A stretch of DNA of 32,471 bases from Asticcacaulis sp. (GTDB lineage: Bacteria; Pseudomonadota; Alphaproteobacteria; Caulobacterales; Caulobacteraceae): contig NZ_JAIXSV010000087.1 in the NCBI RefSeq assembly GCF_027484505.1, forward strand, positions 1 to 32,471, in the 5' to 3' direction. Positions 3,101 through 32,471 of this stretch are shown here, piece by piece; the stretch's first letter is position 1; each line of letters opens with the position of its first letter. Both the position numbers and the translations under genes were made by a program. Below the pieces are notes generated by a model, which had not been told where the DNA came from, did not search any database, and worked only from the letters and a program-made list of their open reading frames with translations.

Positions 3101-4111
3101 ATGACGTCCACCCCTGCCCCCGCCCCTGACCCGTCTGCGCCCCCGGCCAAACCACCCTTCGACACGGTGGCCTTTTTGCGGACGTGGGGGACGACCCTGT
3201 TCCTGCTGCTGCTGATTATCGGGTTCGCGGCGTGGAACCCGCGTTTTCTGTCGCTGCGCAATGCCCTCAACATCCTGACCGAGGTGTCGATCTATGGCGT
3301 CATTGCCGTCGGCATGACCTTTGTCATCCTCACCGCCGGGGTCGATCTGGCGGTAGGCTCGCTGCTGGCCTTTGCGGCGATTGCCGCCGCCTGGGTGGTG
3401 CAGCATATGGGCGGTGACCTGCCGCAATGGCTGGTGGCGCTCAGCGTCGCCTCGGCCATTGGTCTGGCGGCAGGCTATGCGCACGGCAAGACGATAACCT
3501 GGCTTAAGGTGCCCGCCTTTATCGTGACGCTGGGGGGGATGACCATCTGGCGCGGGGCGACCCTGATCCTCAATGACGGCGGGCCGATTTCCGGCTTTGA
3601 TGCCGGCTATCGCTGGTGGGGCACAGGGACGGTCCTCGGTGTGCCGGTGCCGGTCATCCTGTTTGCACTCGTGGCGCTGGCCGGGCATGTGACGCTGCGC
3701 TACACGCGCTTCGGGCGGCAAGTCTATGCGGTGGGCGGCAATGCCGAGGCCGCACGGCTGGCCGGGATCAATGTCAAGGCCATACTGATCAGCGTCTATG
3801 TCATCGTTGGCTTTCTGGCCGGGCTGTCAGGCTTTTTGCTGTCGGCACGGCTCGGTTCAGCCGAGGCCGTGGCAGGCATCAATTACGAGCTGCGCGTCAT
3901 CGCTTCGGTCGTCATCGGCGGGGCCAGCCTGTCGGGCGGGGCGGGCCATATCCGCGGCACGCTGATCGGAGCGCTGCTGATCGGGGTGCTGTCGAACGGG
4001 CTCGTCATCATGCACGTTTCGTCCTATTTCCAGCAGGTGGTGATCGGCCTGATCATCGTCGCAGCCGTGGCCTTCGATGCCTACGCCAAATCACATCGCG
4101 GAAAGGTCTGA
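3101..4111 (+). CDS. iatP: myo-Inositol ABC transporter, permease
   Basis: A 336-residue inner-membrane permease of the branched-chain/ribose type (BPD_transp_2, RbsC-like). After a proline-rich cytoplasmic start there are many hydrophobic segments, including LFLLLLIIGFAAW near residue 33 and the conserved GMTFVILTAGVDLAVGSLLA. The C-terminal half has GGASLSGGAGHIRGTLIGAL, the loop expected to contact the ATPase. The ATG at 3101 is preferred over the TTG directly before it. It follows iatA by 9 bases and ends 4 bases before the GH92 gene, so all four belong to one transcription unit. Confidence 0.9.
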   Translation: MTSTPAPAPDPSAPPAKPPFDTVAFLRTWGTTLFLLLLIIGFAAWNPRFLSLRNALNILTEVSIYGVIAVGMTFVILTAGVDLAVGSLLAFAAIAAAWVVQHMGGDLPQWLVALSVASAIGLAAGYAHGKTITWLKVPAFIVTLGGMTIWRGATLILNDGGPISGFDAGYRWWGTGTVLGVPVPVILFALVALAGHVTLRYTRFGRQVYAVGGNAEAARLAGINVKAILISVYVIVGFLAGLSGFLLSARLGSAEAVAGINYELRVIASVVIGGASLSGGAGHIRGTLIGALLIGVLSNGLVIMHVSSYFQQVVIGLIIVAAVAFDAYAKSHRGKV

Positions 4112-8434: not shown

Positions 8435-8470
8435 AGCCCTATAAACATAGGGCTTTAGGCTTTGTTTTTG
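8431..8470 (+). terminator. Intrinsic terminator overlapping the iolR stop
   Basis: Perfect 12-bp arms, CTAAAGCCCTAT (8431-8442) and ATAGGGCTTTAG (8447-8458), with loop AAAC, followed by GCTTTGTTTTTG. The TAA stop of iolR is inside the left arm. It directly abuts a copy of the hairpin repeat. Confidence 0.75.
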
Positions 8471-8556
8471 CCCCTCGCCGGGCGGCGGCTACGCCACCTT
8501 GGCCGCCGCCTCAATGGCGGCTTGAGCGGAATGATCCCGAAAAGATCATTCCGCTT
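8461..8556 (+). repeat. Hairpin repeat family R2, copy A (partial)
   Basis: The stretch from CCCCTCGCCGGGCGG through GGCCGCCGCC to the terminal stem AGCGGAATGATC/GATCATTCCGCT (8525-8536 and 8544-8555) is shared with 28866-28999 and, inverted, 32330-32462. The left-hand ATCATTATG hairpin of the other copies is absent here; the iolR terminator takes its place. Confidence 0.8.
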
Positions 8557-12417: not shown

Positions 12418-13316
12418 CCATTACCTTCGGCGTCAGCCCCATTGCCTGGATCAATGACGACATGCCCGAACTGGGCGGCGATACGCCGCTCGACAGCGTT
12501 CTGAAAGACATTGCCGAGGTCGGTTTCGCCGGGTCGGAGCTGGGCGGAAAATTCCCCAAAGACCCTGCGGTGCTGAAGGCCTTGCTGGGTGGCTACGGGC
12601 TGGAACTGGTCGGCGGCTGGTATAGCTGCGAGCTTCTGACGCGCGACGCCGAGGCCGAAATCGCGGCCCTGCAAGGGCATCTGGCGCTTCTGAAAGCCAT
12701 GGGCAGCCGCGTCTTCGTCATCGCCGAAACGAGCAATGCCATCCACGGTCAGAAGGACATCCCGCTGAAAGACCGCCCGCATCTTGATGCCGAGGGCTGG
12801 GCCCGTTTTGGGGCGCGACTGAGCGCGGTCGCAGACTATGTCAACGGACACGGCCTCAAGCTCGCCTACCACTACCATCTGGGCACGGTTGTGCAGGACG
12901 AAGCGGACCTGACGGCGTTTCTGATCCATACGACGCCCAATGTGGGGGTCACGCTCGATACGGGCCACGCGGTTCTGGGCGGTATCGACCCCTATGGCCT
13001 GATCGACAGCCATCCGGAGCGTATCGTCCACGTCCACTGCAAAGATGTGCGTCAGGCCGTGTTTGAGCGCACCGCAGGGGCTGAGGACAGCTTCCTCAAC
13101 GGTGTGCTGGCCGGTATGTTCACCGTGCCGGGCGACGGCTCGATTGACTTTGACCGCATCATGCGGGGCCTGAAACGCATAGACTATGCGGGCTGGATCA
13201 TCATTGAGGCCGAGCAGGACCCGGCCAAGGCCGATCCACGCGCCTATGCCGATATGGGGCTGAAAACCCTGCGCACCGCCGCTCAGGCCGCCGGACTGTC
13301 AGAGGGCGCCCGATGA
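12414..13316 (+). CDS. iolE: scyllo-Inosose (2-keto-myo-inositol) dehydratase
   Basis: A 300-residue xylose-isomerase-like TIM-barrel protein that dehydrates scyllo-inosose to the trihydroxycyclohexane dione. Visible family features are the start FGVSPIAWINDDMPELGG, the metal-ligand-bearing strands LAYHYHLGT, VGVTLDTGHAVLGG and IVHVHCKDV, and the last strand WIIIEAEQDP. The start ATG overlaps the iolD stop and its own stop overlaps the iolB start, both as ATGA. Confidence 0.93.
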   Translation: MTITFGVSPIAWINDDMPELGGDTPLDSVLKDIAEVGFAGSELGGKFPKDPAVLKALLGGYGLELVGGWYSCELLTRDAEAEIAALQGHLALLKAMGSRVFVIAETSNAIHGQKDIPLKDRPHLDAEGWARFGARLSAVADYVNGHGLKLAYHYHLGTVVQDEADLTAFLIHTTPNVGVTLDTGHAVLGGIDPYGLIDSHPERIVHVHCKDVRQAVFERTAGAEDSFLNGVLAGMFTVPGDGSIDFDRIMRGLKRIDYAGWIIIEAEQDPAKADPRAYADMGLKTLRTAAQAAGLSEGAR

Positions 13317-14116
13317 GCCATCTGCGCGTTCGCCCGGCCCCGCCCGATGCCGAAGGCCGCGTCACCGTCATCACGCCGCAGTCGGCAGGCTGGACCTATG
13401 TCGGTTTCACGCTGGTGCGGCTTGTGGCCGGTCAGACCTATCGCGGACAGGAAGAAACGCGCGAAACCTGCCTCGTGATCGTCAGCGGCACGGCCAACAT
13501 CGCGGTCGGAACGGAGGATTTCGCCGCCGTGGGTGGTCGCCGCTCGCCGTTCGAGGATGCGCCGCCGGGCGCCGTCTTTGTACCGCCAGCGACCGCCTAT
13601 GCCGTTACCGCCGTGGACGCGTTCGAACTGGCCGTCTGTACCGCGCCGGGTCAGGTTGGTGACACGGTGCGCCAGATCGCGGCCTCAGACATGTCGCGGG
13701 AAGTGCGCGGTCAGGGCACCAATACCCGCTATATCCGCAACATCCTGCCGCAGGACCGCCCGGCCCACAGCCTGCTGGTGGTCGAGGTGGTCACCCCCGC
13801 CGGTCACTGGTCGAGCTACCCGCCGCATAAGCACGACAGCGCTGAGCCAGAGCTGGAGACGCAACTCGAAGAAACCTACTATCACCGTATCAACCCGCCG
13901 CAGGGCTTCGGCTTTCAGCGCGTCTATACCGACGACCGCAGCCTCGATGAGGCGGTGCTGGTCGAAGACGGCGACGTGGTGCTGGTCCCGCGCGGCTATC
14001 ACCCGGTGGGCGCGCCGCATGGCTACAGCCTCTACTATCTGAACGTCATGGCCGGGCCGGAACGCCGCTGGATCTTCCGCAACGATCCGCAGCACGAGTG
14101 GATGCTCAAGGGCTGA
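13313..14116 (+). CDS. iolB: 5-Deoxy-glucuronate isomerase
   Basis: A 267-residue bicupin that isomerises 5-deoxy-D-glucuronate to 5-dehydro-2-deoxy-D-gluconate, the IolC substrate. The metal-site region is SSYPPHKHD followed by ELETQLEETYYHRINPPQGFGFQ; VLVPRGYHPVGAPHGY and RRWIFRNDPQHEW are strongly IolB-like. It is the last gene of the operon, coupled to iolE by a 4-base overlap. A strong hairpin with a T-rich tail ~130 bases downstream probably ends the transcript. Confidence 0.93.
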   Translation: MSHLRVRPAPPDAEGRVTVITPQSAGWTYVGFTLVRLVAGQTYRGQEETRETCLVIVSGTANIAVGTEDFAAVGGRRSPFEDAPPGAVFVPPATAYAVTAVDAFELAVCTAPGQVGDTVRQIAASDMSREVRGQGTNTRYIRNILPQDRPAHSLLVVEVVTPAGHWSSYPPHKHDSAEPELETQLEETYYHRINPPQGFGFQRVYTDDRSLDEAVLVEDGDVVLVPRGYHPVGAPHGYSLYYLNVMAGPERRWIFRNDPQHEWMLKG

Positions 14117-14131
14117 GGGTGGGTTTAAGAC

Positions 14132-14271
14132 GCAGGGGTCACGACCCCTGCACCCCGAAACGCGGTGCGAAAGACCTGAAGGGCGAAGCTCCCTGCCCTA
14201 TTGACCTCTGCACTTGGTTTGCCGTTCGCGCTCCCGGTTATGGGGTGAAGGGGCCTGCGGCCCCTTCGATC
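14132..14271 (+). repeat. Hairpin repeat family R1, copy 1
   Basis: It begins with hairpin GCAGGGGTC/GACCCCTGC (14132-14151), passes through ACCCCGAAACGCGGTGCGAA and CCCGGTTATGGGGTG, and ends with hairpin GAAGGGGCC/GGCCCCTTC (14247-14267). A closely similar direct copy lies at 15487-15626 and an inverted copy at 17349-17497. Copies 1 and 2 bracket the Fic gene. Confidence 0.88.
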
Positions 14272-14276
14272 TTTTC
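14247..14276. terminator. Terminator between iolB and fic
   Basis: A 9-bp GC-rich stem, GAAGGGGCC/GGCCCCTTC with loop TGC, followed by GATCTTTTC. It sits between two convergent genes and is the only good terminator-like structure for the iolCDEB operon. It is also the right end of repeat R1 copy 1. Confidence 0.6.
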
Positions 14277-14282
14277 ATCTGA

Positions 14283-15377
14283 TCAACGGCTTTCAGACAC
14301 TTCAAGGAACAGCCGCACCAACTCGCTATTGATATAATAGTTGCTTTTGCCAGAGCGATGCTTTTCGACAAAACCCTGCTCCGCCAGCGTATCGAGATAA
14401 CGCGCCGCCGTCTGACGGGTCACCCCCAAATCATTCTGGACGTATTCAATGCGGGTGTAAGGGTGGCGGAACAGATTGTTCAGCAGGTCCTGGCTGTAGA
14501 GTTTGGGTAAGTCCTCTCGCATCCGATGCTTTACACGGGCCATCTGTTCCCGGACGCCCTCAACCAGTCGTACCGTGGTGGCCGCGGTTTCCGCCACGGC
14601 CTCCAGCATGAAAACAACCCAGTCTTCCCACGCGCCCTCATCACGCACGGCTTGCAGCAGGCGATAATAGTCCGCCTTGTGACGGGTTATATGGCGCGAC
14701 AGATACAGGATCGGAATATCCAGCAAACCTGTCCGTGTCAGGTACAACACATTGAGGATTCGACCGATCCGCCCATTCCCGTCCGGAAAAGGATGTATAC
14801 TTTCAAACTGATGATGGATCAGCGCCATCTTGATCAGTGGATCGAGCGCCGACAACTCATCATCATTAATGAAGCGTTCCAGCCCGGCCATGTGGCCCAG
14901 AATGGCTTGTCCGTCCTGCGGCGGGACGAAGACGGTTTCGCCCGTCATCTCGTTTTTTAGCGCAGTGCCCGGCACAACCCGAAAGCCGTCATTGCGCCCC
15001 TTGAGCCGCCTGAACATCTCGATCAGGGCCGCATTGGGTATCAATCCGTCTGTTTGACGGAGCCGGTCGTATCCCAGCCGCAAGGCATCCCGATAAAGCG
15101 CCACCTCCTTGGCGGCCGGGGATTGCGGGTCATCCGGGAACAGGTCTGCCTGAAACAGCTCATCCTGCGTTGTAACGATATTCTCAATTTCCGAAGACGC
15201 CTTGGCCTCCTGCAAGGCCAGGGTGTCGATCAATATGCCCTGATTGGGTATAGTGCGGGCCTGACCTTTGAGATCAGCAAGCGCACGACTGGCCCGTGTC
15301 AGTGCTTTGTAAACACGCACGGTTTCCAACTCGACGGGAGGCGGTAGATCGGGAATGGCATAGGTTGGGATCAACAT
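14283..15377 (-). CDS. Fic-domain AMP-transferase, class II with wHTH tail
   Basis: A 364-residue protein with a Fic_N region, a Fic domain and a C-terminal winged helix. The catalytic motif HPFPDGNGR (195-203), continuing IGR, is intact, so it should transfer AMP (or another NMP) to hydroxyl side chains of target proteins. An inhibitory-helix motif of the form SxxxEN (SSEIEN, 61-66) precedes the Fic core, defining class II: activity is blocked in cis by the Glu. The wHTH (about 310-355: RIEYVQNDLGVTRQTAARYL) suggests DNA binding, perhaps at the AACATG repeats upstream. No clear Shine-Dalgarno precedes the ATG. The gene lies between direct repeats R1. Its target is unknown. Confidence 0.9.
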   Translation of the reverse strand: MLIPTYAIPDLPPPVELETVRVYKALTRASRALADLKGQARTIPNQGILIDTLALQEAKASSEIENIVTTQDELFQADLFPDDPQSPAAKEVALYRDALRLGYDRLRQTDGLIPNAALIEMFRRLKGRNDGFRVVPGTALKNEMTGETVFVPPQDGQAILGHMAGLERFINDDELSALDPLIKMALIHHQFESIHPFPDGNGRIGRILNVLYLTRTGLLDIPILYLSRHITRHKADYYRLLQAVRDEGAWEDWVVFMLEAVAETAATTVRLVEGVREQMARVKHRMREDLPKLYSQDLLNNLFRHPYTRIEYVQNDLGVTRQTAARYLDTLAEQGFVEKHRSGKSNYYINSELVRLFLEVSESR

Positions 15378-15477
15378 GGCGACTGTTTTAACATGAAACC
15401 CGGAACATGTTATGAAAATGTGATTTTTTTAACATGACGGGTTTGATATGTTCGGAAATTCACTTTGTTCGAACATG
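15373..15477. promoter_or_regulatory. AACATG repeat cluster in the fic promoter region
   Basis: AACATG occurs at 15373-15378 (over the start codon), 15390-15395, 15404-15409 (within palindrome AACATGTT), 15431-15436 and 15472-15477, with a related TATGTT at 15447-15452. The clustering in ~105 bp is unlikely to be chance and resembles multiple operator half-sites. Binding by the Fic protein's own winged helix is a guess. Confidence 0.45.
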
Positions 15478-15486
15478 AACAAGAAT

Positions 15487-15626
15487 GCAGGGGTCGTGAC
15501 CCCTGCACCCCGAAACGCGGTGCGAACCTGTCTTCGGGCGAAGCCCCCTGCCTATTCGCCTCTGCGCGTCGCTTGCCGTGTGTGCTCCCGGTTATGGGGT
15601 GAAGGGGCCTGTGGCCCCTTCGGTCT
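15487..15626 (+). repeat. Hairpin repeat family R1, copy 2
   Basis: A direct repeat of 14132-14271: it starts with GCAGGGGTC/GACCCCTGC (15487-15506), contains CCCGGTTATGGGGTG and ends with GAAGGGGCC/GGCCCCTTC (15602-15622) plus a T-rich tail. The outer hairpins and borders are nearly identical; the middle differs more. Confidence 0.88.
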
Positions 15627-15632
15627 TTCTTC

Positions 15633-15825
15633 TTGCAACACGGCAAAAATCACAAATCCGCGTCAAGGGCATTCAGAGGCCCGTACGGCGAATTTTTGCG
15701 TTTTGGCCATATGACATCGGAAAAACATTCGAAGGCCGCTCACGCGCCTTCTGAGCGCCTCACTGATGCGAACACCTAAATAAACACCCGCTATGCCGTT
15801 AAGACTCTGATTTTGAATCAGAAAT
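15633..15825. other. Non-coding spacer downstream of the GH43 gene
   Basis: No supportable gene. A small 7-bp stem, TCTGATT/AATCAGA at 15806-15822, sits just after the GH43 stop on the minus strand and could be a weak terminator. Nothing else recognised. Confidence 0.4.
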
Positions 15826-16863
15826 TCACCGTTTCAGCGGTCCCACGGTCACGGGTTCACCAAAATCGGGGGTGCCATCCTTACGCCACTTCACATATTG
15901 CAATCGGGAGTGGCGATTGGGGTCAAAAAGCGAGTTGCCCTTGATCTCCTTGTAGTCGCGGGCGTGATAGACGATCACATCGCGGCCGCGCTCATCGACG
16001 GTGAAGCCATTGTGCCCCGGCCCCCAGATGTTGTTCTTCTCAGAGCTGACGAAGACCGGCACGGGCGACTTGCTCCACGAGGCCGGGTCCATCAGATCGG
16101 CATCGGCCTTGGCCGTCAGAAGGCCCAGACAATAGTTGTGGTCGGTCGCCGAAGCCGAATAGGTCACAAAGACGCGGCCGTTGCGGATCAGCACCCCGGG
16201 GCCTTCGGCGACCTTGTACTTCACCGTCTCCCAGTCATAGGTCGGGATGGTCAGGCGCACGGGCGTCTTCGCAAAGGTCGTCGCTGTGGCCAGAGGCGCG
16301 AGGTAGAGGTTGGAATTGGTGTCGATGCCGGGCTCCTTCTGCGCCCATATCATGTAGGTCACGCCCCGATGCTCAAACAGGCTGGCGTCGAGATTAAAGG
16401 TGTCCCAAGGCATCTGCACTGGCACCGGCGCATTCCACTTCGCGGTCAGCGGATTGGATTCCGCCGTCGATATGACGTAGGTGCGCACGCGGAACGGCTC
16501 GCCCTTGTCCCCTGCCCCGAAATAAAGCCGCCACTGGCCGTCGAAATGATGCAACTCCGGCGCCCAGATATAGCCACCCATCTTGCCCTCGGTCGGACGC
16601 CGCCATACCACCACCTCTTCGGCCGCCGACAGTCCCCCCAGCGTCCTCGCCCGGCGGATGACCAGACGATCATATTCCGGCACAGTCGCCATGAAATAAT
16701 AATAGCCGTCGCTGTGTTTGAGGATTTGCGGATCGGCGCGCTGCTTGATGATCGGGTTGATGATTGGCGCGCTTTTGGCCTGTGCAATGACAGGCGCGCT
16801 CAGGCTCGCAGCGGCCGCGGTCCCGATAAACAGACGGCGCGATAAAGAGGTCGGTTTTGGCAT
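15826..16863 (-). CDS. Exported GH43-family glycoside hydrolase
   Basis: A 345-residue protein with a Tat-like signal (SRRLFIG at 8-14, hydrophobic stretch, APVIAQA). The five-bladed propeller family GH43 is indicated by RADPQILKHSDGYYYF (general base Asp44), NLDASLFEHRG (Asp159, the pKa modulator) and AEGPGVLIRNGR (acid Glu220), with GPGHNGF near the end. GH43 enzymes act on arabinose- or xylose-containing polysaccharides; sequence reading does not fix the substrate, though alpha-L-arabinofuranosidase is a common annotation for this type. The ATG at 16863 is kept because the Tat motif follows at the right distance. It is transcribed away from the replication origin. Confidence 0.82.
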   Translation of the reverse strand: MPKPTSLSRRLFIGTAAAASLSAPVIAQAKSAPIINPIIKQRADPQILKHSDGYYYFMATVPEYDRLVIRRARTLGGLSAAEEVVVWRRPTEGKMGGYIWAPELHHFDGQWRLYFGAGDKGEPFRVRTYVISTAESNPLTAKWNAPVPVQMPWDTFNLDASLFEHRGVTYMIWAQKEPGIDTNSNLYLAPLATATTFAKTPVRLTIPTYDWETVKYKVAEGPGVLIRNGRVFVTYSASATDHNYCLGLLTAKADADLMDPASWSKSPVPVFVSSEKNNIWGPGHNGFTVDERGRDVIVYHARDYKEIKGNSLFDPNRHSRLQYVKWRKDGTPDFGEPVTVGPLKR

Positions 16864-16896
16864 TTCGGCATCCCATTGTGATTATGTCTTACAATT

Positions 16897-16925
16897 ACCC
16901 TATCGCCCTACCCGGCCCTTGTCAA
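16897..16925 (-). promoter_or_regulatory. Possible promoter of the GH43 gene
   Basis: On the minus strand a perfect TTGACA (16925-16920) is followed after 17 bases by TAGGGT (16902-16897), a partial match to the -10 consensus, 33 bases before the start codon. Confidence 0.4.
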
Positions 16926-17058
16926 AACGCCCCTTCGACCCTTTTCCATATCTAAACCTCTGAAGGCGTTAGAGACGTTCAAGAGTCTTAAGTTACAGAG
17001 TTAAACGCCCGCCGAAACCTCAAATCCGCAATAGATTCATCTGGCTAGGCGTCCACAG

Positions 17059-17311
17059 CGTTCCCGTTGTATCGCGTCTGCGTTCCCGAAGTATCAAAGG
17101 CAGCGTTCCCGAAGTGTCAGGGGATTGTTCCTGATGTGCCAAAGACCGTTCCCGATGTGTCGAAACTCCCGTGCAGGGCCCTGGTTTTTGAATCAATTTG
17201 GCTCCCCCCTTCGCAAAACTCGTTCAAACCGATTCCCTTCCTGTCAACAGATTCGGTTTTTGTGACGGTTTGTCGTCAAAAGCCGCAGAGTGATTCGTCA
17301 CTTCGGGAACG
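17059..17311. other. Iteron-type replication origin
   Basis: Five direct 15-bp repeats of form CGTTCCCGAWGTRTC begin at 17059, 17081, 17104, 17126 and 17147, spaced 22, 23, 22 and 21 bases, about two helical turns. The second and third are closest to consensus; the fourth is degenerate (TGTTCCTGATGTGCC). A sixth, inverted copy lies at 17297-17311 with one mismatch. They are within 460 bases downstream of repA, as expected for RepA-binding iterons. The segment between direct and inverted copies includes AT-richer stretches that could be the melting region (inference). Confidence 0.8.
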
Positions 17312-17348
17312 CTTTGGAGGGGGAGCGAAAAGAAAGAAGATGAAAGAC

Positions 17349-17497
17349 GCAGGGGCCGCGGGCCCCTGCACCCCATAACCGGGTGCACAGAAGGCGCTGA
17401 TGAGTGTGTGGTGAATAGGGGAAGGGGCTTCGCCCGAAGACTGTTGAACCCTGAGCGTATAGGGGTGCAGGGGCCTGAGGCCCCTGCGTTCTTTCCC
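17349..17497 (-). repeat. Hairpin repeat family R1, copy 3 (inverted)
   Basis: Inverted relative to copies 1 and 2: hairpin GCAGGGGCC/GGCCCCTGC (17349-17369), CACCCCATAACCGGG, a GGGCTTCGCCCGAAGAC segment and a second hairpin GCAGGGGCC/GGCCCCTGC (17467-17487). The middle is more diverged. It lies between the iterons and the repA stop and may end repA transcription. Confidence 0.78.
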
Positions 17498-17513
17498 CTT
17501 ACCTTCTCAAAAC

Positions 17514-18617
17514 CTAGGCCCGCAACTGATGACGGTTCTTTTCGTGATAGCGTTTGACGAAGCCGATAAAGGCGCTCTGATAGCGGTCGGGGGCGCGTTC
17601 GGCGCTTTCGCTCAGCCAGGCGCGGAAGTCGGCGTGCAGGGCGTGGAAGTCCCAGCCGCGATAGTGTTTGCGCAGGTGGTCGAGCGTGTCTTCGGTGATA
17701 TAGCCGCGCGGTTCGTCATTGGCGCTGACGGGTTTGGGTCTGGCCGCCGGTTTGACCACTTCGACGGGCGCGGGGCTGGCGTCGCGGCGCACCATATGCA
17801 GCAGCGGTTCGCGCGAGGTGGCGGCTTCGGTCAGGCTGAGGTCGTAGCCCGGCAGGTCGTTACGGCGCACGATGGCGGCGATTTCGAACTTGAAACGACG
17901 GTATTGGCCCTCGGCCCCGGACTTTTCAAACAGGGTCGGCAGGGCGATGGCAAAGCCGCCCTCGCCTGCCCCGCCGGCGTGTTTGCGGGCGACCTTGTAC
18001 AGCCAACGCTCGCGCCCGCCCGTGATATCGAAATAGGCGCGGTCGATGGAGAGCACGCCGCCATTCATCAGGACGCCCTCATAGAACCAGCTGGACAGCG
18101 ACAGGCTCAGGCCGCGTGAGCGGTCGGTCTTTTCATCGACCAACTGGCTCCAGTTATCGAGCCAGGAGAAGGTGGCCTCACGGCGCAGGTCTGATCGGAT
18201 ATTGGTCTTGACGGTCGTTGATTGCAGCCGGTCAAGCGCCTGCCCCAAAAGCTCATAGGATCGGCCAGATATAGGCCGGCCGATGGAGCGCAGCAGGTCA
18301 TAGGGCATGATTTTCAGCGTGCGCGGGATATCGTTGACGCGGCGCTGCTTGAGGTCGTTCAGCACGCTGGCGCAATAGATCAGGATGTCGGCGTCCCAGA
18401 TGGTCGCCATGCCATAGTCGGGATTGGCCGAGACGTGCACCCACACCTTGCCGTCGGGCGAGGTGTAGTCGATGGGTTTGAGGCGTTTCGATTTGGCCAG
18501 ACTGAAGAAGGGCCGTTCCATCATCTCGCGCTGATCGCGCAGGCTCAGATCGGCCAGATAGGGCAGGAAGAGATCAATCTGTTCGGACTTGTCTTCGGCC
18601 ATGATCCTGTCAGCCAT
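17514..18617 (-). CDS. repA: Replication initiator protein (RPA / RepA family)
   Basis: A 367-residue protein resembling the alphaproteobacterial plasmid initiator family RPA (PF10134). Conserved-looking segments are ERPFFSLAKSKR, WDADILIYCASVL, LGQALDRLQSTTVKTN and RAYFDITGGRERWLYKVARKHAG; the C-terminal ~100 residues are more variable, with a basic WHALHADFRAWL-like tail. Such proteins bind iterons and open the origin; a set of iterons lies just downstream. A second ATG at 18602 is an alternative start, and neither has an ideal ribosome-binding site. Together with parA and parB upstream in the same direction it marks an independently replicating element. Confidence 0.85.
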   Translation of the reverse strand: MADRIMAEDKSEQIDLFLPYLADLSLRDQREMMERPFFSLAKSKRLKPIDYTSPDGKVWVHVSANPDYGMATIWDADILIYCASVLNDLKQRRVNDIPRTLKIMPYDLLRSIGRPISGRSYELLGQALDRLQSTTVKTNIRSDLRREATFSWLDNWSQLVDEKTDRSRGLSLSLSSWFYEGVLMNGGVLSIDRAYFDITGGRERWLYKVARKHAGGAGEGGFAIALPTLFEKSGAEGQYRRFKFEIAAIVRRNDLPGYDLSLTEAATSREPLLHMVRRDASPAPVEVVKPAARPKPVSANDEPRGYITEDTLDHLRKHYRGWDFHALHADFRAWLSESAERAPDRYQSAFIGFVKRYHEKNRHQLRA

Positions 18618-18653
18618 GTCTGAATTTATGATGAGGAAGATAAGTAAGATACC

Positions 18654-18839
18654 GGGGCCACAGGCCTCGGACCCCGAAAAGTTTCTTAGAGGAAACTTTT
18701 CGTACTCCGATTCTCAGGATTAGTTGAGTATCGGGGTGTGGGGCCAACTGGCCCCACAATCTTGGAGTCGATCTTTAAGATTAAAAACCTGGGGCCACAG
18801 GCCCCAAACCCCAAAAGTTTCCTCAAAGAAACTTTTTAT
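18654..18839. repeat. Paired composite hairpins between repA and parB
   Basis: A ~49-bp unit made of GGGGCCACAGGCC and a stem AAAAGTTTC/GAAACTTTT occurs at 18654-18702 and again, directly repeated, at 18791-18839. Between them is a third hairpin GTGGGGCCA/TGGCCCCAC (18738-18757). The second copy overlaps the parB stop. These stems could attenuate readthrough from parAB into repA. Confidence 0.7.
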
Positions 18840-19930
18840 CTGAGCCCCTTGCCCTGCTTGTCCAGCGCTTCAAGCGCCTTACGAAACAGCTCGGTCAGTT
18901 CACGCGCCGACGCGCCCGACCCAGCGTGCAGGCGCAGCGACACGCCGTTGCGGTTGGACGACATGACGCTGAGCGCTGGGCGGCCGGACGGGGCGGGGAG
19001 GGTGAGCAGGCTGCGGTCTTCGGCAGCGGCCGGCGCATCAACGGTCATCAGCTGACGCACCACCTCGGCGGCGGGAACGCTGGGGCCACCGCGGAAGCTG
19101 ACCTGCAACTTGGCCAGCTCCTCGGCGGCGTACTTCATCAGCTGCAGAAGCTCCGTGTCGTTGGCGGCTTCCAGCGACTGAATGCGCTGCGCCAGCGGGT
19201 AGCAGGTGGCGAGCTGGATATCGGCGGGGCTGGCGAAGGCCGCCACGGCCCAGTCGGGCAGGGCGCCGACGCTGAGCATTTTCGACAGCCAGCCCTTCGA
19301 CAGACGCAGGCGTTCGGCCATACGCACCTGCTTGCCGCCATAGTGCTGATCAAGCGCCGCCAGATAGGTGCGGGCGCGCTCGAAATCCGAGACGTCCTTG
19401 CGTGCGCGGTTTTCGATGTCGGAGATACGGAAGGCCGACTCGTCGTCCAGCGCATAGACCTGCGCCAGGAACATCATGTCCGGATAGTTGTTGGCGCGCA
19501 GCCACGAAATGGCCCAGTGGCGACGCGAGCCAGCGATGACCTCGTAATCGTGTTCCGGGTCGTTATCGACGCGGCGGACGATGGCGGGAACTTTTTGACC
19601 GCCTTCGGCCAGAATGGCGTCGATCAGTTCGCGGCAATTGGCCTCGGTGAGGGATTCCTGATGACGCGGATTGCCGGTCCAGATGCGCACGCGCGCCGGG
19701 TCGAGCAGCAATTGTGTCACCTGCTTCACTTCACCATTGGCGACGCGGGCGAGGGCGGATTCGCGCGCCAGCAGGGTGTTGGCCGATCGCACGCTGGCCG
19801 GAGCAGGAGCCGCGGGGGCGGCCGTCGCCGGGCCGGGGTTGAGCCGGATGGGGTCCCGCGACATGGGTGTGCTTTCAGACAGGGCGTCGTTGAGCAGGGC
19901 GGAGAGATAGTCAGACTGACGTTTGGACAT
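18836..19930 (-). CDS. parB: ParB/RepB-type partition protein
   Basis: A 364-residue centromere-binding protein. The N-terminal ParB domain contains YEVIAGSRRHWAI (GSRRHWA at 134-140), corresponding to the CTPase box II motif GERRxR, and ENRARKDVSDFERARTYLAAL just before the helix-turn-helix (about 193-216: VRMAERLRLSKGWLSKMLSVG). The C-terminus is predicted dimerisation, with DRSLLTLPAPSGRPAL and a final helix. It would load on parS and segregate the replicon with ParA. The ATG at 19930 has AGGAGG and follows the parA stop by 9 bases. No parS site was identified with confidence. Confidence 0.92.
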   Translation of the reverse strand: MSKRQSDYLSALLNDALSESTPMSRDPIRLNPGPATAAPAAPAPASVRSANTLLARESALARVANGEVKQVTQLLLDPARVRIWTGNPRHQESLTEANCRELIDAILAEGGQKVPAIVRRVDNDPEHDYEVIAGSRRHWAISWLRANNYPDMMFLAQVYALDDESAFRISDIENRARKDVSDFERARTYLAALDQHYGGKQVRMAERLRLSKGWLSKMLSVGALPDWAVAAFASPADIQLATCYPLAQRIQSLEAANDTELLQLMKYAAEELAKLQVSFRGGPSVPAAEVVRQLMTVDAPAAAEDRSLLTLPAPSGRPALSVMSSNRNGVSLRLHAGSGASARELTELFRKALEALDKQGKGLR

Positions 19931-28662: not shown

Positions 28663-28865
28663 CTAGGCTGTGGTGACAATTTAAGATGTAATGCGGCTAT
28701 TTTCTCCTCCCTACGCTTAAGCGTGGGGAGGTGGCAGCGAGCGAAGCGAAGCTGACGGAGGGGTATAACCGTCCGTAAGATACCCCTCCGCCTCGTAAAC
28801 TCGGCACCTCCCCATGATATGGGGAGGAGGAAGATCGCAAACGTAAATTCGTCACCACAGCCTAG
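28663..28865. mobile_element. 203-bp MITE-like element with terminal inverted repeats
   Basis: The left end CTAGGCTGTGGTGAC-AATTTA (28663-28683) matches the inverted right end TAAATTC-GTCACCACAGCCTAG (28844-28865): 15 bp perfect plus an AATTTA block offset by one base. The interior is a long imperfect palindrome with CTCCTCCC/GGGGAGG and GGAGGGG/CCCCTCC arms and no open frame. This is the form of a non-autonomous transposable element; the parent family was not identified. Its right end abuts the next repeat directly. Confidence 0.75.
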
Positions 28866-28999
28866 ATCATTATGATTTCTGGTAGAAACATAATGATTCA
28901 GCTTTTGTTTAGCCCCTCGCCGGGCGGTGGCTTGCGCCACCTTGGCCGCCGCCGCAATGGCGGCTTGAGCGGAATGATTCCAGTAGAAATCATTCCGCT
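28866..28999 (+). repeat. Hairpin repeat family R2, copy B
   Basis: Left stem ATCATTATG/CATAATGAT with inner TTTCT/AGAAA (28866-28897), then CAGCTTTTGTTTAG, the GC-rich core from CCCCTCGCCGGGCGG to GCCGCCGCC, and a final stem AGCGGAATGATT/AATCATTCCGCT ending at 28999. Almost the same sequence, inverted, occupies 32330-32462. Confidence 0.85.
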
Positions 29000-29041
29000 C
29001 TACAACGGACCGACGCTTCTTTGCCAAATATGGGCTCAGAG

Positions 29042-31125: not shown

Positions 31126-32346
31126 ATGAGACAGGCTGTGGCTGTCATTGTGGCGCTGTCGTTTCTGGCCGCGGGCGTGTCCGCGCAGGCGCAGATCACC
31201 TATCAGCCTGCGCCGGTAACAAAGACGCAGGTCTTTACCCTTGAGCCGCGCGACGGGGTAACCTGCGCCAACGGTACGCTGAGCTGGCCTGCGGCCTTTA
31301 CCTTCCCGGCGGGTTTAATCGCGCCGTTGCCAGCGCCCAAACCGGCCACGAGCAATAGCGATCCCATCGTGTTCAGAGGTTCGCCCGTGGCGGTGAACAA
31401 GGTTTACACTTTGGGCTTTGACGTGCTGGCCAATGGCCGGATGAGCAATATCCGTCCGGTGGGCGGAGATTATCGACTGTCTGCCAATGAATTTTTGCCG
31501 ACCTGGGCGGCGAGCTGGAATTTCGGTGCTCAGCCAAAGGCTTTGACCGGCTGCAAGATGACATGGGATATCAAAACCGATTACACGCCAGAGGCGGCCA
31601 AGCCCCTGATGTATGAGGCCGCTTTTCTGCGCAATTTCGCCAGTGGCCTCAAACCCGCCGATCCGCGCAGCGAGGATTGTAAGGCCGTGGACCGGCGCAT
31701 CCGTCTGAACGCCTATCCGGACCGCCAGCAAATGCGCCGCACACCGGGGCGTTCGCAATGGCTTGTCCTGCGAACCGATGTGCAGGCCAATGGCAAGGTA
31801 AAGGTGGGCGGACGGCTGCGCGCTTCGGGTGAAGAGGCCAATCTGGAGGCGGTGGAAAAGGCCCTGAGTCAGCGCGCCTACTATCCCGGTGAGGCCGCCG
31901 AATGCCTGACCGGCTATGTGATCCCAGCGGACGGTCTGCCATGGACGGGCGGCGTGGGGGATGATGGCACGGAGGCTGACAAGGCAAACAAAGAAGCCGA
32001 GGAAGAAAAAACCTGTCCGGCGGAGGCTCGCCGTGCGGCCATGACCTTCAGCTATCGCCCTGAATATTATCCGACTCAGGCCAGCCGTCTGGGTATCGAA
32101 GGCATCGCGCTGCTGACCTTTGACGTAGCCCCCTGGGGTCAGGTGCGGATCAAGTCGAGTACAAGCCAGCCCCTGCCGCAATTTGCACAGGCCGCGTCGC
32201 GCATGTTGACGCAATCGAGCTTCAAACCCACGGATCGCGGTCTGAGTGGGTGTCGTCTGCTGGTGCGCTTTGTGCTCGACAAGGACGATAAGCCCGAAGC
32301 GGCCGCTCCCGAAGTCTCGGAAGGTTTAGAGCGGAATGATTTCTAA
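31126..32346 (+). CDS. Exported protein with three TonB-C-like modules
   Basis: A 406-residue protein with a signal peptide (AVAVIVALSFLAAGVSAQAQ) and no later transmembrane segment. The last module (about 297-386) is a recognisable TonB C-terminal domain: YRPEYYPTQASRLGIEGIAL, then VAPWGQVRI and SSFKP. Two earlier stretches (about 47-150 and 185-266) look like diverged copies, with VNKVYTLGFDVLANGRMSNI and WLVLRTDVQANGKVKVGGRL. Each module has a Cys near its start and end (47/143, 185/260, 297/376), suggesting disulfides in the periplasm. It lacks the membrane anchor of true TonB, so an energy-transducer role is doubtful. The ATG at 31126 follows CAGGGGGG. The last codons and stop come from a repeat. 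Confidence 0.75.
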   Translation: MRQAVAVIVALSFLAAGVSAQAQITYQPAPVTKTQVFTLEPRDGVTCANGTLSWPAAFTFPAGLIAPLPAPKPATSNSDPIVFRGSPVAVNKVYTLGFDVLANGRMSNIRPVGGDYRLSANEFLPTWAASWNFGAQPKALTGCKMTWDIKTDYTPEAAKPLMYEAAFLRNFASGLKPADPRSEDCKAVDRRIRLNAYPDRQQMRRTPGRSQWLVLRTDVQANGKVKVGGRLRASGEEANLEAVEKALSQRAYYPGEAAECLTGYVIPADGLPWTGGVGDDGTEADKANKEAEEEKTCPAEARRAAMTFSYRPEYYPTQASRLGIEGIALLTFDVAPWGQVRIKSSTSQPLPQFAQAASRMLTQSSFKPTDRGLSGCRLLVRFVLDKDDKPEAAAPEVSEGLERNDF

Positions 32347-32462
32347 TGGGATCATTCCGCTCAAGCCGCCATTGAGGCGGCGGCCAAGGTGGCAAAGCCA
32401 CCGCCCGGCGAGGGACTAAACAAAAGCTGGATCATTATGTTTCTACCAGAAATCATAATGAT
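32330..32462 (-). repeat. Hairpin repeat family R2, copy C (inverted)
   Basis: The reverse complement closely matches copy B: stem AGCGGAATGAT/ATCATTCCGCT (32330-32340 and 32351-32361), the GC-rich core, CTAAACAAAAGCTGG and the ATCATTATG/CATAATGAT stem ending at 32462. It begins inside the upstream coding sequence, which ends at its TAA (32344-32346). Confidence 0.85.
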
Positions 32463-32471
32463 CCAGAAGAC

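Follow-up and report, generated by a model that had tools for sequence, protein, structure and literature searches.

A gene that lies between two direct copies of the same repeat looks like a cassette, and the question that it raises is whether the repeats have served to bring the gene in or to take it out. The case considered here is a fic gene in a 32,471-nt stretch of Asticcacaulis DNA (the window, by which the whole analysed stretch is meant), where a preliminary description had noted ~140-bp hairpin repeats, called R1, on either side of fic and its upstream region, and had proposed that fic moved in with these repeats or is lost through recombination between them. The answer that we consider probable is that R1 is an Asticcacaulis family of double-hairpin elements at gene 3' ends, that fic is bracketed by such elements as a transcription unit of its own, and that it varies among plasmids without R1xR1 crossover.

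The fic locus and its repeats

The repeats themselves are as described. R1-1 and R1-2 are in direct orientation and 84% identical over 140 nt, most alike at their ends (95% over the left 40 nt, 86% over the right 78 nt) and less conserved in the middle; the longest exact blocks common to the two are 29 and 28 nt, and the interval between them holds only fic and the 109 nt upstream of it. Each of the two folds with a hairpin at either end, closed by ACCCC/GGGGT; compared with shuffles, the five R1 strands that were folded give z-scores from -3.0 to -7.5. The third, inverted copy of the preliminary description is also there (R1-3, Table 1).

From left to right the elements are iolB (rightward), R1-1, fic (leftward), R1-2, GH43 (leftward), a putative origin, R1-3, repA (leftward), R1-4 and parB (leftward). 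Iteron-like repeats of the CGTTCCCGAAGTGTC type, picked out by eye at 17050-17170 in the GH43-repA gap, are possibly the replication origin. A plasmid search, and searches that started from fic, repA and iolB, assign the window to Asticcacaulis. The counterparts of the locus are plasmids: those of A. excentricus M6 (NZ_AP018829.1) and CB48 (NC_014818.1) and of strains DW145 (NZ_AP029026.1) and AND118 (NZ_CP084912.1). With the window and genome G004, six replicons have the locus in common.

Table 1. Genes, R1 elements and operator-like repeats of the fic locus, in window coordinates.
Feature	Position	Strand	Remarks
iolB	13313..14116	+	Left neighbour, convergent with fic; KduI/IolB domain match
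R1-1	14132..14271	+	Double hairpin in convergent gap; 15 nt to iolB, 11 nt to fic
fic	14283..15377	-	Class II Fic protein of 364 aa, SoFic-like, with a winged helix as C-terminal domain
fic operator-like inverted repeat A	15406..15436	.	TGTTAA-N15-ATAACA (coding strand), start codon 57 nt on; position hand-counted
fic operator-like inverted repeat B	15447..15477	.	CATGTTCG..CGAACATA type; by eye
R1-2	15487..15626	+	Direct copy of R1-1; fic operator on one side, GH43 on the other; GH43 stop 199 nt away
Glycosyl hydrolase family 43 (GH43) gene	15826..16863	-	Right neighbour
R1-3	17342..17495	-	Inverted copy at repA 3' end; 143.9 bits (covariance model)
repA, replication initiator protein A	17514..18617	-	
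R1-4	18643..18765	-	parB/repA gap; weaker family member; 43.8 bits on minus, 39.4 on plus; E 3.8e-11
parB-like gene	18836..19930	-	

The iolB-GH43 junction with and without fic

As the preliminary description supposed, fic is not conserved at the locus across relatives: the window, M6 and AND118 carry it, and CB48, G004 and DW145 do not. Homologues of at least 85% identity occur in 4 of 25 Asticcacaulis genomes, the window's included. No close fic lies elsewhere in CB48 or G004 (best E 1.2e-12 and 2.8e-12, respectively); the absence from DW145 covers its plasmid record only.

The idea of a mobile or excisable cassette with R1-1 and R1-2 as its borders, in which recombination between them deletes fic or fic arrived between them, is suggested by the direct orientation of the two copies, their identity and their long exact blocks, and by the existence of fic-less alleles with one R1. 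Such alleles, for which the preliminary description had proposed to search sister strains, are indeed found: CB48, G004 and DW145 each have a single R1 in the iolB-GH43 gap. They are not clean, however. R1xR1 recombination should leave 15 nt between iolB and the remaining R1, but the distance in all three is 128-129 nt (measured from the iolB stop position that is common to the replicons), and 88-89 nt of this align with the upstream region of the window's fic. The identities to the window are 65/90 in CB48, 73/89 in G004 and 74/89 in DW145; the corresponding alignment scores, 39.5, 57 and 59, lie above anything that shuffles reached (maxima 17.5-19.5). The 45 nt that adjoin iolB have no match to fic or to the R1-1 gap above the shuffles' 95% level. 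What the fic-less replicons lack is the fic coding sequence and R1-1; what they have is the upstream region and R1-2. Since recombination between the repeats would also remove the upstream region, which lies between them, these three alleles are not its products. (The iolB stop codon position is itself altered in DW145, near 3817-3835 of stretch L171, where the annotated gene is 18 nt longer than the window's.)

AND118 also speaks against the cassette: fic lies beside GH43 with its upstream region kept, an R1 is found at the fic 3' end only, there is no match to R1-2, and cyoD takes the place of iolB. This layout indicates that R1-1 goes with the end of fic and R1-2 with the GH43 side. In M6, R1-1 is internally deleted and fic is intact. 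No recombinase or transposase lies between R1-1 and R1-2; fic is the sole gene there and its immediate neighbours are iolB and GH43. Nor was R1 found when 80 further fic loci, 79 from outside the genus, were searched with flanks of up to 6 kb; the one match scored 12 bits at E 0.45. A repeat-bounded cassette is contradicted by the junctions and by AND118, with no support lent to it by the 80 other loci, and we regard it as very unlikely; what fails in the preliminary description is gain or loss of fic by R1-1xR1-2 recombination.

The exchanges or deletions that distinguish the three fic-less replicons have ends outside an R1xR1 crossover. In which direction the changes went, and how often, is a matter of inference. 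A tree of the backbone, rooted on AND118 for the sole reason that it is the most divergent plasmid, has two pairs, G004/DW145 (100) and window/CB48 (91), with M6 joining the latter (90); single-gene trees are partly at odds with it. The fic-less replicons have a common junction, yet they do not form one clade on this tree, and exchange between plasmids would explain that. The absence of a common clade counts against a simple history. The decay of R1-3 in CB48 is a point against the answer favoured here. (In place of R1-3, CB48 has a palindrome like those in other R1 loops, with a T run; L162 5740-6450, by eye.) It is conceivable that the fic-less state is the older one, and that the lineages of the window and of M6 acquired fic, along with R1-1, from a fic-bearing plasmid through homologous exchange: CB48 and G004/DW145, which are not one clade, have the fic-less junction in common, and the disagreement of the gene trees suggests exchange. 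The fic-less junction already holds the fic upstream region, however, which argues that fic was there before, and AND118, the most divergent plasmid, has fic beside GH43. We consider this order of events possible but doubtful. On the reading that we prefer, fic would be gained and lost among these plasmids through deletions or allelic exchanges with ends elsewhere than a simple R1xR1 crossover would put them.

R1 elements at gene ends

If the repeats do not serve to move fic, what are they? BLAST of the window's own genome with R1 yields three full-length copies and six partial matches, and identity among R1 copies is 74-84%. A covariance model (built from ten copies; 11 were aligned at first and the truncated R1-1 of M6 was left out) gives at least 52 matches to related double-hairpin elements in the same genome at E<=0.01, with both strands counted and 122 of 3416 candidates scored. 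It matches 24 of 25 Asticcacaulis genomes at that threshold; in a draw of 80 genomes of the family, at E<=0.001, it matches 8/8 from Asticcacaulis and 0/72 from 21 other genera. At most 122 candidates per genome were scored in the genus scan and at most 38 in the family draw, so that the counts are lower bounds, and the absence outside Asticcacaulis holds under strict filters. Members range from about 85 to 220 bp. A small palindrome of the GCGCTCAAACAGCGAAGCGGTAGCGCAC type sits inside a terminal hairpin of some R1-like elements, as if inserted (L208, L225, L228 and L236; by eye).

Rfam offers no name for these elements: a scan of window positions 13500-19000 places nothing over R1-1 to R1-3 at E<=1, no match over any R1 reaches the gathering level, and a sub-threshold pRNA match (21.1 bits vs 34) overlaps R1-4. 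A hairpin pattern search with loops of 3-5 nt proved too strict, missing the window's own copies and matching two other places. A literature search on an R1-type element in Asticcacaulis found nothing, which is no proof of absence. R1 is a genus-specific family of a known sort, new as a family and ordinary in kind.

The preliminary description had asked which genes R1 copies flank, and had held that copies beside most genes at random would speak against a special tie to fic. The outcome comes close to that, in that R1 flanks the neighbouring genes and other chromosomal genes too; its placement, among the matches listed, is convergent at 28, tandem at 7 and divergent at none of 35 R1-like sites off this plasmid. 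(The 35 are the listed non-plasmid matches of genomes G000, G004, G006, G007 and G016, two of the four of G001 and two of the three of G013; own-genome stretches L230-L234 are outside the set.) Both stop codons are within 13 nt at 21 of the 28 convergent sites. For a base rate, 400 kb of M6 hold 327 adjacent ORF pairs, of which 64 are convergent, and a high-copy repeat of the same genome as the window, taken as a control, is convergent at 6 of 19 classified copies. When the 35 sites are collapsed into 13 groups that have no flanking gene family in common, 8 are convergent, 5 tandem (with two ties) and none divergent (P 0.001). All of these contexts, for sites, M6 pairs and groups, come from a mechanical ORF picker and not from annotation, and a few tandem calls rest on short frames. 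Four of the groups hold 4 to 7 loci with a common flanking gene family, so that R1 elements are retained in particular gaps from species to species, with changing interiors.

Each end of an element is a GC-rich hairpin, then a short outward T-rich tail (GTCTT), with complementary ACCCC/GGGGT on the inner sides. TCTT is found at 62/70 outward ends and 0/70 inward sides, a count biased by a model trained on copies with such tails and with ACCCC on the inner side. A terminator scan of 13000-19000 gives 13 sites, where shuffles average 6.1; among the 13 are four separate outward hairpins of R1 and three alternative stems of those four. The outward sites are at R1-1(+), R1-2(+ and -) and R1-3(-), that is at four of the six ends of R1-1 to R1-3 and at neither of the two ends of R1-4, and their T tails are short. 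The most likely job of R1 would be bidirectional termination of transcription together with protection of mRNA 3' ends. Since the T tail follows the far hairpin, an element would act on transcripts that have crossed the whole of it. The window has four R1-type elements, near the ends of iolB/fic, GH43, repA and parB; set between parB, repA, GH43, fic and iolB in this way, they would bracket fic because it is a transcription unit of its own. Counting against the terminator reading, R1-2 is 199 nt from the GH43 stop codon, far for a terminator. Nor is R1 the usual terminator: in the 400 kb of M6 a strict double-hairpin detector fired at 3 of the 64 convergent pairs and the R1 model matched 7 places (the sample was picked partly to include known R1 sites, and no density is drawn from it), which makes R1 one of several gene-end structures. 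Other convergent gaps of M6 have classical hairpins with long T runs (by eye). The Rho-independent bidirectional terminators of tail-to-tail gaps, as the text of the TransTermHP paper describes them (PMC1852404), are like R1 in their GC hairpins and outward T-rich tails, but have one common hairpin where R1 has two hairpins, a long structured spacer and short tails.

The other known structures that R1 resembles are REP dimers, or BIMEs, the GTAG and CGTC families of which are described by Di Nocera et al. 2013 (PMC3733652) as paired inverted palindromes with a spacer, near the 3' ends of mainly convergent or co-directed genes; in this broad sense of placement the 35 listed sites (28, 7 and 0) put R1 among them. 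R1 lacks, if compared by description, the GTAG or CGTC tag with a CCA tail of these two super-families, its stems begin GC(A) where the text of that paper gives AT pairs for CGTC repeats, its full-length copies are few, and it was found only in Asticcacaulis in these scans. Neither Asticcacaulis nor Caulobacter occurs in the main text of that paper. The CGTCTT tails had suggested membership of the CGTC family, which was rejected because R1 has the tag at the opposite side and a different stem.

The resemblance raises the possibility that R1 is a REP/BIME-like or MITE-like family of mobile palindromes that settle harmlessly at gene ends and have no role in termination. Placement of inverted pairs near 3' ends matches that of REP dimers as outlined in PMC3733652, and strains differ in the direction of the R1-3 interior: M6, G004 and DW145 have it opposite to the window and AND118, as if the segment flips between inverted ends. 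The comparison with a second repeat family of the same genome tells against it. That family, a different palindromic repeat of ~141 bp with copies at 28862-29002 and 32327-32466 of the window and a relative at 8459-8538, has at least 40 near-full-length genome copies (134 candidates, 40 of them scored), one being the query and 39 showing 90-97% identity, and looks like a real high-copy mobile element. R1, in contrast, has few full-length copies, 74-84% identical, persists at the same gene gaps in several species, and has conserved outward tails. Harmless settling without a role in termination is, in our view, unlikely.

The Fic protein and the repeat upstream of its gene

The fic product has Fic_N, Fic core and SoFic-like C-terminal winged-helix domains, and searches match it to SoFic. 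Its translation carries HPFPDGNGR and SSEIEN; the Fic consensus motifs are HPFx(D/E)GNGR for the core and (S/T)xxxE(G/N) for the N-terminal inhibitory segment. The inhibitory motif of class II Fic proteins is also given in the text of PMC9755527. The combination of a class II Fic domain with a C-terminal domain is that of SoFic (PDB 3EQX and 9VJC; PADLOC SoFic; described in PMC12249575). On domain and motif evidence fic is predicted to encode a SoFic-like class II Fic protein. It differs from SoFic in scoring 379.2 with the NCBIfam equivalog NF046030, under, and thus outside, its cutoff of 550, and in that no AS1-like antitoxin was recognised downstream, as judged without direct comparison with AS1. 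(The small frames over the fic-iolB gap, of 22, 24, 57 and 79 aa, run over R1-1 or into the flanking genes.)

The upstream region that the fic-less replicons retain has a feature of its own. Among 54 distinct regions upstream of fic homologues of 71-85% identity, 42 have the inverted repeat TGTTAA-N11..17-TTAACA with one mismatch or none, and 12 lack it at this stringency; its position is -40 in 33 of the 42 and its spacer 15 nt in 38. Shuffles give 0.04/54 and random 160-nt stretches of the same loci 6/1080. Counted as exact hexamers it is at 45 of 80 fic loci, and a stricter pattern is at 37/80 against 0.00 in shuffles. The window has two such repeats in tandem (A, at -57, and B; Table 1). 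Distant homologues of about 44% identity (L015 and L016) apparently have another repeat, TGTCGAT/ATCGACA (by eye).

The nearest parallel is CccR of Yersinia pseudotuberculosis, like fic here a class II Fic with a C-terminal HTH and a wide inverted repeat at its promoter, which, according to the text of PMC9755527, represses its own promoter through that widely spaced repeat. The operators differ, that of CccR being given there as AGATAATCAT-N26-ATGATAATCT and that of SoFic-like genes being TGTTAA-N15-TTAACA, mostly 40 nt before the start codon. By this analogy the repeat upstream of fic is likely an operator for autoregulation by the Fic protein. A literature search for an operator of SoFic itself found CccR as the one relevant match and nothing else, which does not prove that no such operator has been described.

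Of the fic-less replicons, CB48 still has the strict repeat A pattern, and G004 and DW145 do not, so that the operator remnant would be decaying at least there. One may go further and suppose that SoFic-type genes in many alphaproteobacteria and some other bacteria have a conserved operator that is read by their own winged-helix domain, and, in addition, that selection has preserved the operator in fic-less plasmids as a decoy, by which an incoming SoFic is sensed or buffered. The first half, a self-read off-switch, is likely; the decoy half is a bold proposal, against which the loss of the strict pattern in G004 and DW145 counts, and the two taken together are highly improbable.

For the biology of the genus, the natural alleles contradict the tempting reading of a repeat-bounded toxin cassette, and R1 is a genus-wide family of 3'-end elements that will turn up whenever Asticcacaulis DNA is annotated. 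The operator upstream of SoFic-like genes, a by-product of this analysis, is more interesting than R1: its strong conservation gives experiments a point of entry to the question of how a phage-defence toxin encoded by one gene may be quieted when it moves between hosts.
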